Below, piece by piece: positions 23,844 to 29,033 of a stretch of 43,163 nucleotides of DNA. The position numbers and the translations under genes are program-made. The notes below the pieces were generated by a model that was not told the DNA's origin, did not search any database, and saw nothing but the letters and a program-made list of their open reading frames with translations. Where the stretch lies: the NCBI RefSeq assembly GCF_900103505.1, contig NZ_FNIA01000025.1:1-43163 (forward strand), in the 5' to 3' direction. The stretch is from Haloarchaeobius iranensis (GTDB taxonomy: Archaea > Halobacteriota > Halobacteria > Halobacteriales > Natrialbaceae). Positions within the stretch are counted from its first letter, which is position 1, and the number at the start of each line of letters is the position of its first letter.

Positions 23844-23878
23844 GCGCTCCCGAGACCTGCGAGGCGCAAGAGCCATAT

Positions 23879-23896
23879 TGACTGAACAGTCAGTTA
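23879..23896. promoter_or_regulatory. Operator site A (TGACT-N8-AGTTA), overlapping promoter of the zinc-ribbon gene
   Basis: TGACTGAACAGTCAGTTA sits between a TATA-like catatt (23874-23879) and the ATG at 23902. Its inner core ACTGAACAGTCAGT is the exact reverse complement of the core of site B in front of the transporter gene 1.2 kb away. Repressor binding here would block initiation. Sequence match is seen; binding by the TetR protein next door is inferred. Confidence 0.65.
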
Positions 23897-23901
23897 GGAA
23901 C

Positions 23902-24300
23902 ATGGGTAGAAACGCGACACCGCGTCCCTGGCTCGCAGCGGTGCTCGACGGGCTCGCCGTCGGCCTCGGCCACGCCTACCTCGGGCGGTGGCGCCGGGCG
24001 TTCGGCTGGCTGCTCGTCTGGGCGGCGGTCGCCACGGCGTTCGTCCCGACCGTCACGCTCTCCGGTGGGGGACTCCCCTCCGCGGACGCACTGCTACGGC
24101 TGAGTCCGCTGGTCCTGGTCTCGTCCGTCTGCGCGGCCGACGCGTACCTGCTCGCGCTCAGACGGCTCGAGGCGTCGCCTGCGTCGGACGAGCCGCCGGC
24201 GTGTCCGTCGTGTGGCGTGACCGTCGACCCGGAACTCGACTTCTGTCAGTGGTGCACGACGGAGTTCGAGCGGGTCGACGGTGAGGTGGTCGAGCGATGA
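23902..24300 (+). CDS. Two-helix membrane protein with C-terminal zinc ribbon
   Basis: 132 residues from the ATG at 23902. Residues 8-32 (RPWLAAVLDGLAVGLGHAYL) resemble TM2-like membrane hairpins. Hydrophobic segments lie at about 34-50 (AFGWLLVWAAVATAFV) and about 70-90 (LSPLVLVSSVCAADAYLLAL). The tail holds a zinc ribbon CPSCGVTVDPELDFCQWC (about 103-120, two C-x2-C knuckles). It probably sits in the membrane with the zinc ribbon in the cytoplasm. Promoter-overlapping site A matches the operators of the RND operon, so it is likely in the same regulon. No enzymatic motif is seen; it could be an accessory or assembly factor. I know no firm function for such zinc-ribbon membrane proteins. Confidence 0.75.
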   Translation: MGRNATPRPWLAAVLDGLAVGLGHAYLGRWRRAFGWLLVWAAVATAFVPTVTLSGGGLPSADALLRLSPLVLVSSVCAADAYLLALRRLEASPASDEPPACPSCGVTVDPELDFCQWCTTEFERVDGEVVER

Positions 24301-24357
24301 CGCCGGACGGGGCCGTCCGGAAGATACTTTCGCGCGGTCCGCCGAACTGGTGGGTGT

Positions 24358-24951
24358 ATGTCAGGTAGCGACCGGGAGCCGACGGACACGAAGACGGCCA
24401 TCATGGAGGCGACCTACCGGGCGCTCTGTGAGCACGGCTACGCCGACCTCACAATTCAGGATATCGCCGACGAGTTCGAGAAGTCCCGCTCGCTGCTGTT
24501 CTACCACTACGACACGAAGGAGGAACTGCTCGTCGATTTCCTCCGATTCCTGCTGGACTGGTTCGCGGACGACCTCTCGGCCAACGCCGACGCGTCGCCA
24601 CCCGAGCAGCTGCGCGGGCTGCTGGAGCGGACGGTCCCGGCGGAGCTCGACGACGAGGGCGAGGACTTCCAGGTGGCCTTCCTCGAACTCCGCTCGCAGG
24701 CGCCGTACATCGACGAGTTCCGCGAGCAGTTCACCCGGACCGACGAGTTCCTCTACGACACGATCGCGGCGTACATCGAGGCCGGCATCGAGGAGGGCGC
24801 GTTCCGAGAGGTCGACGTCGACGAGACGGCCGCGGTGCTGGTCGGGCTCATCTACGGGACGATCCTCATCCGCGTCTCCACGGACGACGAGGCGTTCGCC
24901 AGCGCCCTCCGTGAGGGTGTGCTGGACTACGTGAACCGACTCGAAGCCTGA
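24358..24951 (+). CDS. TetR/AcrR family transcriptional regulator
   Basis: 197 residues. The N-terminal helix-turn-helix is classic TetR: TKTAIMEATYRALCEHGYAD, then LTIQDIADEFEKSRSLLFYH (about 31-50), followed by YDTKEELLVDFLRFL. The ligand domain is all-helical, rich in Glu/Phe, with pattern TRTDEFLYDTIAAYIEAGIE. It most likely represses the divergent-looking but co-oriented zinc-ribbon and RND transporter promoters through the palindromes A-D, and is released by a hydrophobic compound or ion exported by the pump. No site of that type is found at its own promoter (a TATA-like atacttt at 24324-24330), so autoregulation is not indicated. Confidence 0.9.
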   Translation: MSGSDREPTDTKTAIMEATYRALCEHGYADLTIQDIADEFEKSRSLLFYHYDTKEELLVDFLRFLLDWFADDLSANADASPPEQLRGLLERTVPAELDDEGEDFQVAFLELRSQAPYIDEFREQFTRTDEFLYDTIAAYIEAGIEEGAFREVDVDETAAVLVGLIYGTILIRVSTDDEAFASALREGVLDYVNRLEA

Positions 24952-25036
24952 ACGAGTCGCGGACGGCGGCAGGAAACTGGGAGTCGGCGACGACTCCCGG
25001 TTGACACGTGGGGTGCGAGACGTGTCTGTCGACGCA

Positions 25037-25065
25037 GTGCTGGCAGGGTGGTGTGCGGCCAGCAC
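25037..25065. terminator. Hairpin after tetR, before operator B
   Basis: GTGCTGGC (25037-25044) and GCCAGCAC (25058-25065) form a perfect 8-bp stem with a 13-nt loop. It lies about 85 nt after the tetR stop and directly before site B. There is no T-run, so termination in the archaeal manner is uncertain; it could also be part of the regulatory region. Confidence 0.3.
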
Positions 25066-25067
25066 GG

Positions 25068-25085
25068 TAACTGACTGTTCAGTTA
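25068..25085. promoter_or_regulatory. Operator site B (TAACT-N8-AGTTA)
   Basis: TAACTGACTGTTCAGTTA has the same half-sites and 8-nt spacer as site A, and its 14-nt core is the exact reverse complement of that of A. It is the farthest of three sites upstream of the transporter gene. Centres of B, C and D are about 36 and 38 nt apart, close to a constant spacing, which suggests cooperative binding of several repressor dimers. Confidence 0.6.
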
Positions 25086-25103
25086 GTGTAGGCTTTTCGG
25101 TGT

Positions 25104-25121
25104 TGACTAACCGTTCAGTCA
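25104..25121. promoter_or_regulatory. Operator site C (TGACT-N8-AGTCA)
   Basis: TGACTAACCGTTCAGTCA keeps both outer half-sites TGACT/AGTCA with an 8-nt spacer; flanking bases extend the symmetry to TTGACT/AGTCAA. It lies just upstream of the TATA box (25131-25140), where binding could stop TFB recruitment. Confidence 0.6.
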
Positions 25122-25130
25122 ATCGCGATA

Positions 25131-25157
25131 GAGTTATATGTACTGACTAGTTAGTCA
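25131..25157 (+). promoter_or_regulatory. Transporter promoter: TATA box plus operator site D
   Basis: The TATA-like gagttatatg (25131-25140) is followed at once by TGACT-AGTT-AGTCA (25144-25157), a perfect palindrome with a 4-nt spacer in place of 8. The TATA centre is 27 nt before the ATG at 25164, which fits a leaderless transcript starting at the mini-ORF. Operator D would cover the space between TATA and start, the same layout as at site A. Confidence 0.65.
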
Positions 25158-25163
25158 GGGCTG

Positions 25164-25217
25164 ATGAACACCGTCAGTACTACCCTACAGACACCGCCCG
25201 ACGGAGGGTCGCGATGA
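25164..25217 (+). CDS. Possible 17-aa leader ORF before the RND transporter
   Basis: ATG 25164 opens 17 codons (MNTVSTTLQTPPDGGSR), and its TGA (25215-25217) overlaps the transporter ATG (25214) as ATGA. The promoter geometry puts the transcript start at or very near this ATG, so ribosomes on a leaderless mRNA would meet it first and reach the transporter by coupled re-initiation. Not conserved sequence as far as I know; the coupling is inferred. Confidence 0.4.
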   Translation: MNTVSTTLQTPPDGGSR

Positions 25218-28200
25218 GTCGCACCGACCGTCTCGTCGGGGCGATAACCGACAACACGCGCATCCTCATCGCGGTGATGCTCGTCCTCACCGTCGCCTTC
25301 GGGGCCGGTGTGATGAACCTCGACCAGTCGTCCTCGCTCGACCAGTTCCAGAGCGACACCGAGGAGTCACAGAAGCTCACGTACATCAACGACAACTTCT
25401 CCACCGGCAACCAGAACACGACCTCGGCACAGCTCATCGTCCGGGACGACGACGTCCTCGACAAGGAGACGATGGTCGACGTCCTCGAACTCCAGCAGGA
25501 GTTCAGGCGGAACGCGACGATAAACCAGACGCTCGTCGAGCAGAACGCCATCGTCGGCATCCCGAACATCGTCGCGACGGCCGCCATCCGGGCCGACATC
25601 GGGGCGGAGCTCCAGCGCACCAACGCCGAGTTCCAGCGGCTGAACCGGACCGTCAGCGAGGAGCGCGCCTCGCTCCGTGCGGACGGTGCCGAGTTGGAAC
25701 GGCGCGCCGCGACGCTCAACGCGACGACCGAGGAGCTCAGTGCCGCGCTCGACACGCTCCGTGCGAACCCGAACGCGTCAGTGCGTGAGACGTTCGCGTC
25801 CGTTCGCTCGGCGACCCCCGTCGAGTTCACCGACGAGGACTACGCGACGTTCGAGCGCGCGGTCGAACAGCTCCGGAGCGCGGAGAACAGAAGCGCCGCC
25901 GAGGCCGCCTACCGTCTCGGGACCCGGGGCGTCCTCGCCGACCAGTTCGAGACGCTTCAGTCCCAGCGCGAGACGCTCCAGCAACGGCAGGCCGACCTCC
26001 GCGAACAGGGCGAGCAGCTGCAGGAGCTCGGTGCCGAGCTCCGGTCGCTGAACGCCGACCTACAGAACGCGAGCGACCCGACGCTCGACCGGCAACTCGA
26101 GACGCTGCAGGCGATGAACGAGTCCGAGGTCGACGACACCATCGGGCTGGTCCTCGGCTCCGAGTCCGGCGGACAGGCGTTCGCGTTCATGCCGAACTAC
26201 TACCAGCCCGGCGACACCTCGGTGAACGCGACGATGCTCGTCGTGACACAGACGACGGCCACCGAGATGTCGGCCGGCGCTGCCTCCGACCGCCTCGTCG
26301 ACTCGCAGCTCGCGATGGAGACCGTCGCCGCGAACGCCGACGTAGCGGCCGACGACGTCATCGTCTTCGGCACCGGGAAGATCTCCGACGAGATCAACCG
26401 GTCGATGACCGACTCGCTGGCCATCGTCGGCCCGCTCGCGCTGCTGTTCGTGGTCATCGCGCTCGCCGTCGCCTACCGGGACGTCATCGACATCCTCCTC
26501 GGGCTGGCGGGCATCGGCGTCGTGCTGACGTGGACGTTCGGCGCGATGGGCTGGCTGGGCATCTCGTTCAACCAGATCATGATCGCGGTCCCGGTGTTGC
26601 TCATCGGGCTCTCCATCGACTACGCCATCCACATCTTCATGCGCCACCGCGAGGAGCGCCAGAACGAGAACACGCCCAGCAGCGTCGCCGGCGCGATGCG
26701 CGTCGCCCTCGCCGGCGTCGGCATCGCACTGGTCTGGGTGACGGCGACGACCGTCATCGGGTTCCTCTCGAACCTGACGAGCCCGGTCCCGCCGATACAG
26801 GACTTCGGTATCGCGAGCGCCGTCGGCATCAGCGCCGCGCTCGTCGTCTTCGGCCTGCTCGTCCCCGCGCTGAAGATCGAGGTCGACGGCCTGCTCGAGG
26901 ACCGCTTCGGCTGGGACCGCCGGAAGGAGGCCTTCGGGACCGGCGGCGGGCGGTTCAGTCAGGTCCTCGCGGTCGGCGAGACCGCCGCACGGAAGGCACC
27001 CTACGTCGTCATCGTCGCCGCCGTCCTGCTGAGCGCGGGTGGCGCGTACGGCGCGAGCCAGGTGGACACGACGTTCAACCAGGAGGACTTCCTCGCCGAG
27101 GACCCGCCGGACTGGACGAAGGACCTCCCCGAGCCGTTCAAGCCCGGCGAGTACGACGCCAAGGCGAACCTCGACTACGTCAACGAGAACTTCCTGCGGC
27201 AGGACTCGCAGGCACAACTCCTCGTCGAGGGCGACGTCGCCTCGGCCGCGACGCTCGAACAGCTCCAACGGGCCCAGCGGACCGCGGAGGAGAGCGACAG
27301 CGGCGTCGTGCAAGTGCTCTCCAACGGCGAGGCCGACATCCGCGGGCCGCTCTCGGTGATGGAGCAGGTCGCCGCGAACAACGAGACGTTCAACGCGACG
27401 CTGGCGGCCGCCGACACCGACGGCGACGGCGTCCCCGACCGGAACGTCGACGCGGTCTACGCCGAGCTGTTCGCCGTCGCGCCCGACCAGGCGGCCGGCG
27501 TCATCCACCGGACCGACGGCGGCGACTACGAGGCCGTCCGGATGGTCATCTCGGTCCAGGGCACCGCGTCGATGGGCGAGACCACCGACGAGATGCGCGC
27601 CCTCGCCGACGGCATCGAGGCCGACTCGGAGCTGACCGCGACGGCCACGGGACAGACGATACTGTTCGACATCGTCTCCGACCAGCTGCTCGATACGGTC
27701 ATCGAGAGCCTGCTCATCACGCTCGTCGCCGTGTTCGCGTTCCTGATGTTCACCTACCGCATCACCGAGGGAAGCGCCCTCCTCGGGGCGGTGACGCTGG
27801 TGCCGGTCGTGTTCAGCGTCACGTGGATCCTCGGGACGATGTGGCTGCTCGACATCCCGTTCAACATCATGACGGGGATGATCACCAGCCTGACCGTCGG
27901 GCTGGGGGTCGCCTACAGCATCCACGTCAGCGAGCGCTACAACCAGGAGCTCGAACGCGCCGATTCGATGTGGGACGCGATGGAGACGACCATCACCGGC
28001 ACCGGCGGCGCGCTGCTCGGCTCGGCCGCGACGACGGTCGGCGGGTTCGGCGTGCTCAGCTTCGCCATCCTGCCGCCGCTCCAGCAGTTCGGCATCATCA
28101 CCGGGCTGACGATCATCTACGCGTTCCTCGCGAGCGTGCTGGTACTGCCGAGCCTGCTCGTCGTCTGGACGCGCTACGTCGGGCCCGATGTCGGCGAGTC

Positions 28201-28255
28201 GGCCGCTGAGGCCGAGGCACCTGTCGGGACCGCCGCACCGGGAGCGGAGGACTGA
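25214..28255 (+). CDS. RND/MMPL superfamily transporter
   Basis: 1013 residues with duplicated architecture: membrane helix 1 at about 14-34, a large external domain at about 35-395, helices 2-6 at about 400-545, then helix 7 at about 598-615, a second external domain, and helices 8-12 at about 830-990. Motifs of MMPL/RND permeases are seen: LLIGLSIDYAIHIFMRHREE (Asp in helix 4) and TSLTVGLGVAYSIHVSERYN. The first external domain contains a long Gln/Glu/Leu-rich heptad stretch (about 130-310) that predicts a coiled-coil hairpin, unusual for small MMPL proteins. The second contains DTDGDGVPDRN, a Ca2+-loop-like motif. It likely exports hydrophobic compounds or lipids using H+ or Na+ flow. Confidence 0.9.
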   Translation: MSRTDRLVGAITDNTRILIAVMLVLTVAFGAGVMNLDQSSSLDQFQSDTEESQKLTYINDNFSTGNQNTTSAQLIVRDDDVLDKETMVDVLELQQEFRRNATINQTLVEQNAIVGIPNIVATAAIRADIGAELQRTNAEFQRLNRTVSEERASLRADGAELERRAATLNATTEELSAALDTLRANPNASVRETFASVRSATPVEFTDEDYATFERAVEQLRSAENRSAAEAAYRLGTRGVLADQFETLQSQRETLQQRQADLREQGEQLQELGAELRSLNADLQNASDPTLDRQLETLQAMNESEVDDTIGLVLGSESGGQAFAFMPNYYQPGDTSVNATMLVVTQTTATEMSAGAASDRLVDSQLAMETVAANADVAADDVIVFGTGKISDEINRSMTDSLAIVGPLALLFVVIALAVAYRDVIDILLGLAGIGVVLTWTFGAMGWLGISFNQIMIAVPVLLIGLSIDYAIHIFMRHREERQNENTPSSVAGAMRVALAGVGIALVWVTATTVIGFLSNLTSPVPPIQDFGIASAVGISAALVVFGLLVPALKIEVDGLLEDRFGWDRRKEAFGTGGGRFSQVLAVGETAARKAPYVVIVAAVLLSAGGAYGASQVDTTFNQEDFLAEDPPDWTKDLPEPFKPGEYDAKANLDYVNENFLRQDSQAQLLVEGDVASAATLEQLQRAQRTAEESDSGVVQVLSNGEADIRGPLSVMEQVAANNETFNATLAAADTDGDGVPDRNVDAVYAELFAVAPDQAAGVIHRTDGGDYEAVRMVISVQGTASMGETTDEMRALADGIEADSELTATATGQTILFDIVSDQLLDTVIESLLITLVAVFAFLMFTYRITEGSALLGAVTLVPVVFSVTWILGTMWLLDIPFNIMTGMITSLTVGLGVAYSIHVSERYNQELERADSMWDAMETTITGTGGALLGSAATTVGGFGVLSFAILPPLQQFGIITGLTIIYAFLASVLVLPSLLVVWTRYVGPDVGESAAEAEAPVGTAAPGAED

Positions 28256-28259
28256 GCCG

Positions 28260-29033
28260 ATGGGGTCCGAGTCCGCGGCGGTCGACGCGCTCGAACGACT
28301 CGGCCTGACCAGCTACGAGGCTCGCGTCTTCGTCGCCCTGCAGAAGCTGGGCTCGGGCACCGCCCGCGAGATCGCCCAGGTCTCCGAGGTCCCTCGGTCG
28401 CAGGTGTACACCACCGCCGAGTCGCTGGAGGAGCGTGGGCTCATCGAGGAGCAACGGGCGACACCCATCGAGTTTCGGACCGTCGGACCCGGCGAGGCCC
28501 GGGAGAAACTGGCAGAGCGGCGGCGCGACGACGAGCGTCGTGCGTTCGAGTACCTCGCCGCGGTCGAGCACTCCCTCCAGGACCAGTCGGACGCGTCGGC
28601 GGATATCTGGACGCTTCGGGGACGGGACAGCGTGACCCGTCGCGTCACCCACCTGCTCGACGAGGCCGACGACCGCGTCGTCTTCGGCACTGCGTCCGTC
28701 GAGCTCTTCCCCACGGCGGTTCGGGACGCTCTCGCCGGGGTCGCCACGGACGGCGTCCGGGTCGTCGTCGTGAGTCGCGACCCGGACGTACTGGCCCTGG
28801 CGGAGTCGCTTCCGAACGTCGACTGCTGGCCCCTCGACGGCTCCTACGTCGACGACGTCGAGGGCGGACGCCTGCTCGCCGTCGATGGGGAGACCATCCT
28901 GCTCAGCGTCCTCGGGGCCGGCATCGAGCAGTTCGACGAGGAACACGCCCTCTGGAGCAGTGGGACGCAGTTCGCGACGGTCCTGCTGCAACTGCTCGAC
29001 GGCTGGTTCGACCGTGAGCTGGCCGTCGCGTAG
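28260..29033 (+). CDS. TrmB-like transcriptional regulator
   Basis: 257 residues. The start LERLGLTSYEARVFVALQKL (about 11-30), followed by EIAQVSEVPRSQVYTTAESL, is the TrmB-family winged helix. The C-terminal part (about 115-250) contains WTLRGRDSVTRRVTHLLDEA and VVFGTASVELFPTAVRDALA, resembling the phospholipase-D-like ligand domain of TrmB relatives. It starts 4 nt after the transporter stop and is surely in the same operon. A second regulator encoded with the pump suggests feedback on the pump or on related lipid genes. Target and ligand are unknown. Confidence 0.85.
   Translation: MGSESAAVDALERLGLTSYEARVFVALQKLGSGTAREIAQVSEVPRSQVYTTAESLEERGLIEEQRATPIEFRTVGPGEAREKLAERRRDDERRAFEYLAAVEHSLQDQSDASADIWTLRGRDSVTRRVTHLLDEADDRVVFGTASVELFPTAVRDALAGVATDGVRVVVVSRDPDVLALAESLPNVDCWPLDGSYVDDVEGGRLLAVDGETILLSVLGAGIEQFDEEHALWSSGTQFATVLLQLLDGWFDRELAVA

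Follow-up and report, generated by a model that had tools for sequence, protein, structure and literature searches.

A palindromic operator class at promoters of zinc-ribbon (DUF7575) and exporter genes in Halobacteria, and its probable recognition by the adjacent TetR regulator in Haloarchaeobius iranensis

Introduction

TetR control of exporters is textbook knowledge in bacteria: in the AcrR-AcrAB, QacR-QacA and MtrR-MtrCDE systems the gene of a TetR repressor lies beside the exporter gene, and a palindromic operator overlaps the promoter. TetR proteins are mostly repressors. To our knowledge, control of this kind is hardly described in haloarchaea, and in the literature searched, the coverage of which is incomplete, we found nothing relevant on the regulation of haloarchaeal TetR/RND or TetR/MATE loci or of DUF7575 genes; the apparent mentions of "TetR" in a Haloferax zinc-finger paper proved to be the word "tetrahedral".

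Here we analyze a 43,163-nt stretch of the Haloarchaeobius iranensis genome (contig NZ_FNIA01000025.1; below, the window), where the genes of a zinc-ribbon membrane protein, a TetR-family regulator and an RND transporter are adjacent. The locus resembles the bacterial systems in the adjacency of TetR and exporter and in the palindromic operator at the promoter. It differs from them in the archaeal TATA promoter, the leaderless start and the operator exactly filling the space from the TATA box to the start, and also in its presumed targets: the zinc-ribbon membrane gene is constantly among them, and the exporter is either MATE or a single-chain HAE3-like RND.

In archaea, the TetR repressor FadRSa of Sulfolobus acidocaldarius has few genomic sites with a 16-bp dyad motif and binds as a dimer or a dimer of dimers (PMC6449355). 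The TetR of the window is similar in being an archaeal TetR with few predicted sites and a dyad motif; FadRSa controls a 30-kb fatty-acid gene cluster (PMC6449355), whereas the TetR of the window would control the zinc-ribbon gene and an exporter.

Results

Operator sites in the window

The operator consensus is TRACTRA-N4-TYAGTYA, an 18-bp palindrome scored over 14 defined positions. Exactly four matches of at least 12/14 occur in the 43-kb window (sites A, B, C and D), and they coincide with the four palindromes listed in the initial annotation, all of which are present where it had placed them (TRACT-N8-AGTYA at 23879-23896, 25068-25085 and 25104-25121; TGACT-N4-AGTCA at 25144-25157). Operators are given below without a strand, and all genes and promoter elements of the window described here are on the + strand. 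Site A (23879..23896; TGACTGAACAGTCAGTTA; 14/14) is at -23 relative to the ATG of the zinc-ribbon gene; sites B (25068..25085; TAACTGACTGTTCAGTTA; 14/14), C (25104..25121; TGACTAACCGTTCAGTCA; 14/14) and D precede the RND gene. Site D (12/14) contains a perfect 14-bp palindrome at 25144-25157 and is best placed in the common 18-bp register (25140..25157; GTACTGACTAGTTAGTCA). Hence, the B-C-D spacing is 36 and 36 bp, replacing the earlier values of 36 and 38 nt. The cores of A and B had been described as exact reverse complements over 14 nt, and the agreement is even larger, as the reverse complement of A matches B at 17/18 bases.

In the sister species Haloarchaeobius sp. FL176 the gene order does not differ (recQ-like helicase, zinc-ribbon gene, tetR, RND, trmB), and all four sites are kept: site A is identical, as are the adjacent TATA-like box and the distance from the site to the start codon, and sites B, C and D are present as variants of the palindrome (TAACTGACTGCCCAGTCA, TGACTAATCAGTCAGTCA and GGACTGACTGGTTAGTCA, respectively). 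A pattern search of the 3.77-Mb genome yielded three perfect matches to the consensus, every one at the zinc-ribbon/tetR/RND locus. Loose patterns, when compared with dinucleotide shuffles of the window, are only mildly unusual, their counts being reached in 6/100 and 3/100 shuffles.

It had been suggested that at both promoters a site lies between the TATA box and the start. This is so for sites A and D, with the reservation that the start following D belongs to a mini-ORF at 25164, and the ATG of the RND gene is at 25214. The TATA-like box of the zinc-ribbon promoter, CATATT (23874..23879), is unchanged in FL176, and relatives have gaagRCTTATA at the equivalent place; the TATA box of the RND transcript is TTATAT (25134..25139; TTTATATG in FL176). 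The near-equal spacing of the sites had also been taken as a hint of cooperative repression, an argument we do not accept: in FL176 the spacing is 36/40 bp, other TetR-linked RND promoters have one or two sites spaced differently, and 36 bp does not correspond to whole helical turns. Cooperation between the sites would be speculative.

The zinc-ribbon gene and its promoter across Halobacteria

The zinc-ribbon protein (132 aa; 23902..24300) comprises predicted helices followed by a C-terminal zinc ribbon and belongs to the DUF7575 family (Pfam PF24460, 48.3 bits, cut-off 28.5), with invariant cysteines C101, C104, C115 and C118 (CxxC/CxWC). In its AlphaFold model the helices span residues 9-24, 30-47 and 61-90, the confidence being low (pLDDT 71), and a fold search of PDB with this model gave no match below E=1. 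The score for TM2, 13.4 bits, is below the gathering cut-off of 27.9. No second copy of the operator-bearing zinc-ribbon subfamily was found in the genome of the window. FL176 has a second zinc-ribbon-TetR pair on the same strand, with the operator CTACCGAACGTTCAGTTA and a MATE gene (G004 contig 35, 5641-6674; L118).

As relatives were gathered by similarity to the zinc-ribbon protein, that is, by neither the motif nor TetR, the selection of loci does not favor the result. The presence of the motif before orthologous genes, a test set in advance, was confirmed in many genera and families, and operator-bearing DUF7575 genes are present across the class Halobacteria. In the family of the window, 52 of the 57 distinct zinc-ribbon promoters have the palindrome at -22/-23 or nearby (500 sets of shuffles: mean 0.75, maximum 4), and the same promoter operator is found in most of forty loci from eight further families. 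A typical promoter has the structure gaagRCTTATA-operator-4 nt-ATG, that is, BRE/TATA, operator and leaderless start.

In the pooled set (n = 99 loci, nine families) an operator was counted if it scored at least 10/14 at -20 to -26 from the start. It was observed in 92/99 loci, mostly at -22/-23, and separates the TATA box from the leaderless ATG; TetR is encoded within 1 kb in 72/99, a MATE exporter within 5 kb in 49/99, an RND exporter in 18/99 and either exporter in 61/99, with neither exporter nor TetR nearby in 23/99, all these counts being non-independent trials, since the pool includes near-copies (e.g. L101, L102, L107) and the species share ancestry. As a control we used a DUF7575 paralogue group (n = 20), which has the same domain architecture and is widespread in Halobacteria. 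It differs in having nothing of this kind nearby in 20/20 loci: operator, TetR within 1 kb, MATE and RND were each found in 0/20. Thus, the expected co-occurrence of the zinc-ribbon gene with TetR is seen in relatives (72/99 vs 0/20). Three of the seven pooled loci without the operator themselves belong to the paralogue group.

The operator is retained in at least 17 relatives that have no TetR gene within 1 kb. In one genus (L114, L127, L128, L130, L140) the operator TTACTGACCGTCTAGTCA is retained despite the absence of TetR within 7 kb; an unlinked TetR gene, with TGACTAACTAGTCAGTTA approximately 10 nt before the matched coding region, is present in most of these genomes. The homologue from Haloferax lucentense, checked as a possible model, lacks the operator and is therefore not suitable.

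If the module is defined by an operator at about -22, TetR within 1 kb and an exporter within 5 kb, the window belongs to it, with the operator at -23, TetR adjacent and RND within 1 kb. The initial annotation knew of no described haloarchaeal system with this layout; we likewise found none in the literature searched, but the layout itself is a local form of a module distributed throughout the class.

The TetR regulator and the helix-operator match

The regulator (197 aa; 24358..24951; 84% identical to its FL176 orthologue) has both the N-terminal TetR_N (PF00440, 38.1 bits, cut-off 24) and the C-terminal TetR_C_6 domain (PF13977, 41.9 bits, cut-off 27), and its presumed target promoters bear a palindromic operator, as expected for the TetR family. 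It scores at best 36 bits, vs 150 required, against the NCBIfam equivalog models of AcrR, MtrR, BetI, FadR and RutR, and in being far below the cut-offs it differs from AcrR and MtrR proper. A probable separate TATA box of tetR, GATACTTT (24323..24330), is conserved in FL176 and has no operator; no site of at least 10/14 was found upstream of tetR in either genome. Classic autoregulation of tetR is apparently absent, unless the gene is read through from site A.

In the TetR tree we observe an RND-linked clade, the main zinc-ribbon-linked clade, a clade of regulators whose genes precede those of MATE exporters, as well as others. The TetR of the window and its FL176 orthologue form their own branch, in neither the RND-linked nor the zinc-ribbon-linked clades. 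By the recognition helix, the TetRs nearest to the zinc-ribbon genes are divided into the STAAI type and a second, mostly SLL type. The TTCA/TGAA half is present in the zinc-ribbon operator of 20/26 loci beside SLL-type TetRs vs 3/48 beside the STAAI type (p=5e-10), a comparison with helix classes picked after viewing the sequences; at the level of genera, which corrects for shared ancestry only in part, the counts are 11/14 vs 2/20 (p=8e-5). The window follows the same rule, with a TetR of the SRSLL type (SRSLLFYHY) and TGAA in site A. Among the available lines of evidence for recognition of the operator by the adjacent TetR, this covariation is the strongest.

A paralogous TetR, 46% identical, is encoded in the same genome (G000 contig 40, 66363-66914) next to a MATE gene. 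It has a helix of the SKSLL class and its own operator, TGACTGAACATTCATTCA (66954-66971), at -21, and cross-talk with the sites of the window is possible.

The RND gene and its leader ORF

The RND transporter (1013 aa; 25214..28255) is assigned by profile matches to the MMPL/HAE3-like group: it belongs to the MMPL group of the RND superfamily (PF03176, 123.3 bits, cut-off 20.5), and with 244.3 bits vs the cut-off of 351.9 for the HAE3 subfamily (TIGR00921) it is HAE3-like only. It is followed after 4 nt by the gene of a TrmB-family regulator (28260..29033; PF01978, 66.9 bits), probably in the same transcript. The RND-TrmB pair is also found in FL176 and in another genome (G012), and the TrmB regulator may provide an additional level of control.

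Each of the TetR-linked RND promoters examined has at least one operator upstream, and apart from the window and FL176 there are one or two, spaced differently; RND genes of other subgroups lack the operator, with one exception (L092). At the RND promoter of G012 the equivalent of site D adjoins the TATA box. After the last operator there is the start of an ORF, usually at a distance of exactly 4 nt, which is the spacing at the zinc-ribbon gene, and of 6 nt in the window. In the window this is a leaderless 17-codon leader ORF, MNTVSTTLQTPPDGGSR (25164..25217), the TGA of which overlaps the RND ATG as ATGA. The length of such ORFs is 17 codons (the window and FL176), 20, 42-43, 73 or 91-92 codons, the TGA overlapping the RND start in the same way; besides the window, they are present at L010, L023, L034, L038, L040, L097, L156, L179 and L180, and in two genera the RND gene is reached via two consecutive ORFs, with ATGA at each junction. 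In G012, exceptionally, the putative leader ORF extends 11 nt into the RND gene.

We rejected the possibility that the mini-ORF encodes a functional leader peptide, as non-synonymous codons mostly outnumber synonymous ones, and only the position of the start and the ATGA stop are conserved. As the amino acid sequence is not conserved, the leader ORF most likely serves translational coupling to the RND gene. Coupling of genes with overlapping stop and start codons (ATGA/TGATG) by termination-reinitiation has been studied in Haloferax volcanii (PMC6728339, PMC10666635). The locus of the window is similar in the overlap and differs from these cases in that the upstream partner is a non-conserved ORF of 17-92 codons, the sole role of which seems to be that of a path to the RND start.

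Exporters of the module

In most families the zinc-ribbon gene is followed by a convergent TetR gene and then by a divergent TetR-MATE operon, with an operator between the two TetR genes, and the MATE operons bear the same operator class. In Halomicrobium urmianum the order is zinc ribbon-TetR-TetR-MATE. Several genera have an RND of the window's subgroup as the exporter, for example, in the order MMPL-TetR-VTT-zinc ribbon in Haloterrigena turkmenica. The usual constants of the module appear to be the zinc-ribbon gene, TetR and the operator, the exporter being MATE or RND. The RND link is real, yet it is a particular case of a broader association with exporters. TetR-MATE operons (L120 8811-11110, L214, L216, L236, L276) often run into a gene of 260-275 aa, annotated as a polyprenyl synthetase in Halomicrobium urmianum, with a weak match to PF00348, which hints at a lipid or isoprenoid link.

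Discussion

The explanation that we regard as probable is that the TetR encoded at 24358 represses both the zinc-ribbon and the RND genes via the 18-bp palindromes, so that both products are induced at the same time, the locus being the form that a class-wide module takes in Haloarchaeobius. TetR would bind the TRACTRA-N4-TYAGTYA palindromes at site A, which occupies the whole interval from the TATA box to the leaderless zinc-ribbon start, and at sites B, C and D, which cover the RND promoter, with D in the same TATA-to-start position as A. The bound protein would block TBP/TFB or RNA polymerase. A ligand, probably a toxic amphiphile exported by the pump, would release TetR; its nature is speculative. 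Upon release, the zinc-ribbon protein and the exporter would be induced together, the RND being translated after the 17-codon leaderless leader ORF by stop-start (ATGA) coupling. Control of both genes by this TetR, as initially proposed, is not equally supported for the two. For the zinc-ribbon promoter, conservation of the operator and TetR and the helix covariation give good support to binding and repression by the adjacent TetR; repression of the RND promoter, via D helped by B and C, is likely and has fair support.

Other readings of the sites are less attractive. Loose patterns alone yield three matches in 6/100 shuffles of the window, and if they were all the evidence, the palindromes could be ascribed to chance or to a mobile inverted repeat; the comparative data already refute this, with the fixed position in 92/99 promoters vs 0/20 controls and all three perfect sites of the 3.77-Mb genome at the locus. 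Sites B and C are upstream of the TATA box, where archaeal activators bind, so that TetR could act as an activator, or the palindromes could have a divergent or chromatin function. This we consider very unlikely, as A and D are in the classic repressing position between TATA and start, the one conserved class-wide, and TetR proteins mostly repress. Another TetR could bind or share sites A-D, as paralogous TetRs use near-identical operators. In the extreme case a paralogue acting in trans, such as the contig 40 TetR with the same helix class and its own site at -21, would be the principal regulator at all four sites or at some of them, with the adjacent TetR having another job; retention of the operator in many relatives with no adjacent TetR would agree with that. 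Yet the tetR gene is situated between the two regulated promoters in both the window and FL176, its helix class predicts the operator variant, and the only perfect sites of the genome are at this locus, which makes such a takeover improbable, if less so than activation.

Repression by the adjacent TetR leaves a separate question, whether the zinc-ribbon protein is a "partner of the pump", as first suggested. The zinc-ribbon gene is indeed the constant of the module, but the exporter is more often MATE than RND, and the partnership is derived from linkage only. By this guilt by association, the zinc-ribbon protein may work with the exporter; a physical partnership is speculative. The protein may instead respond, at the membrane and on its own, to the same stress, for example, as a sensor or a membrane-quality protein, with shared regulation and no direct role with the pump. 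This alternative concerns only the partnership and does not contradict the regulatory explanation. It may well be right, though we stop just short of favoring it: the gene is paired with either MATE or RND and in 23/99 loci has neither exporter nor TetR nearby, its model has no fold match in PDB, and the DUF7575 paralogue occurs with no operator, TetR or exporter; on the other hand, the link to exporters of two unrelated families, in several genera and with rearranged gene order, suggests more than chance co-expression. That the operator-bearing DUF7575 proteins are dedicated accessory or sensing subunits for MATE or RND, kept in step by TetR throughout the class, is a tentative and rather doubtful possibility.

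TetR-operator-exporter control is an already known kind of regulation. What we did not find in the literature, incompletely covered as it is, is the combination of a class-wide operator fixed in its position within leaderless archaeal promoters, a constant DUF7575 membrane protein target and MATE/RND alternatives.

The operator is predictable base by base, in one fixed promoter position, in most of the approximately 100 loci. The TetR subfamilies behave as matched helix-operator pairs, which should be useful for predicting the targets of archaeal TetRs, and such pairs may be usable as inducible promoters in haloarchaeal genetics. The layout of the leader ORFs suggests that the pump gene can be reached only if a leaderless transcript is translated throughout its long leader. 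Finally, an as yet unnamed family of membrane proteins acquires a testable role beside multidrug-type exporters: the small zinc-ribbon protein looks like a long-overlooked companion of pumps.
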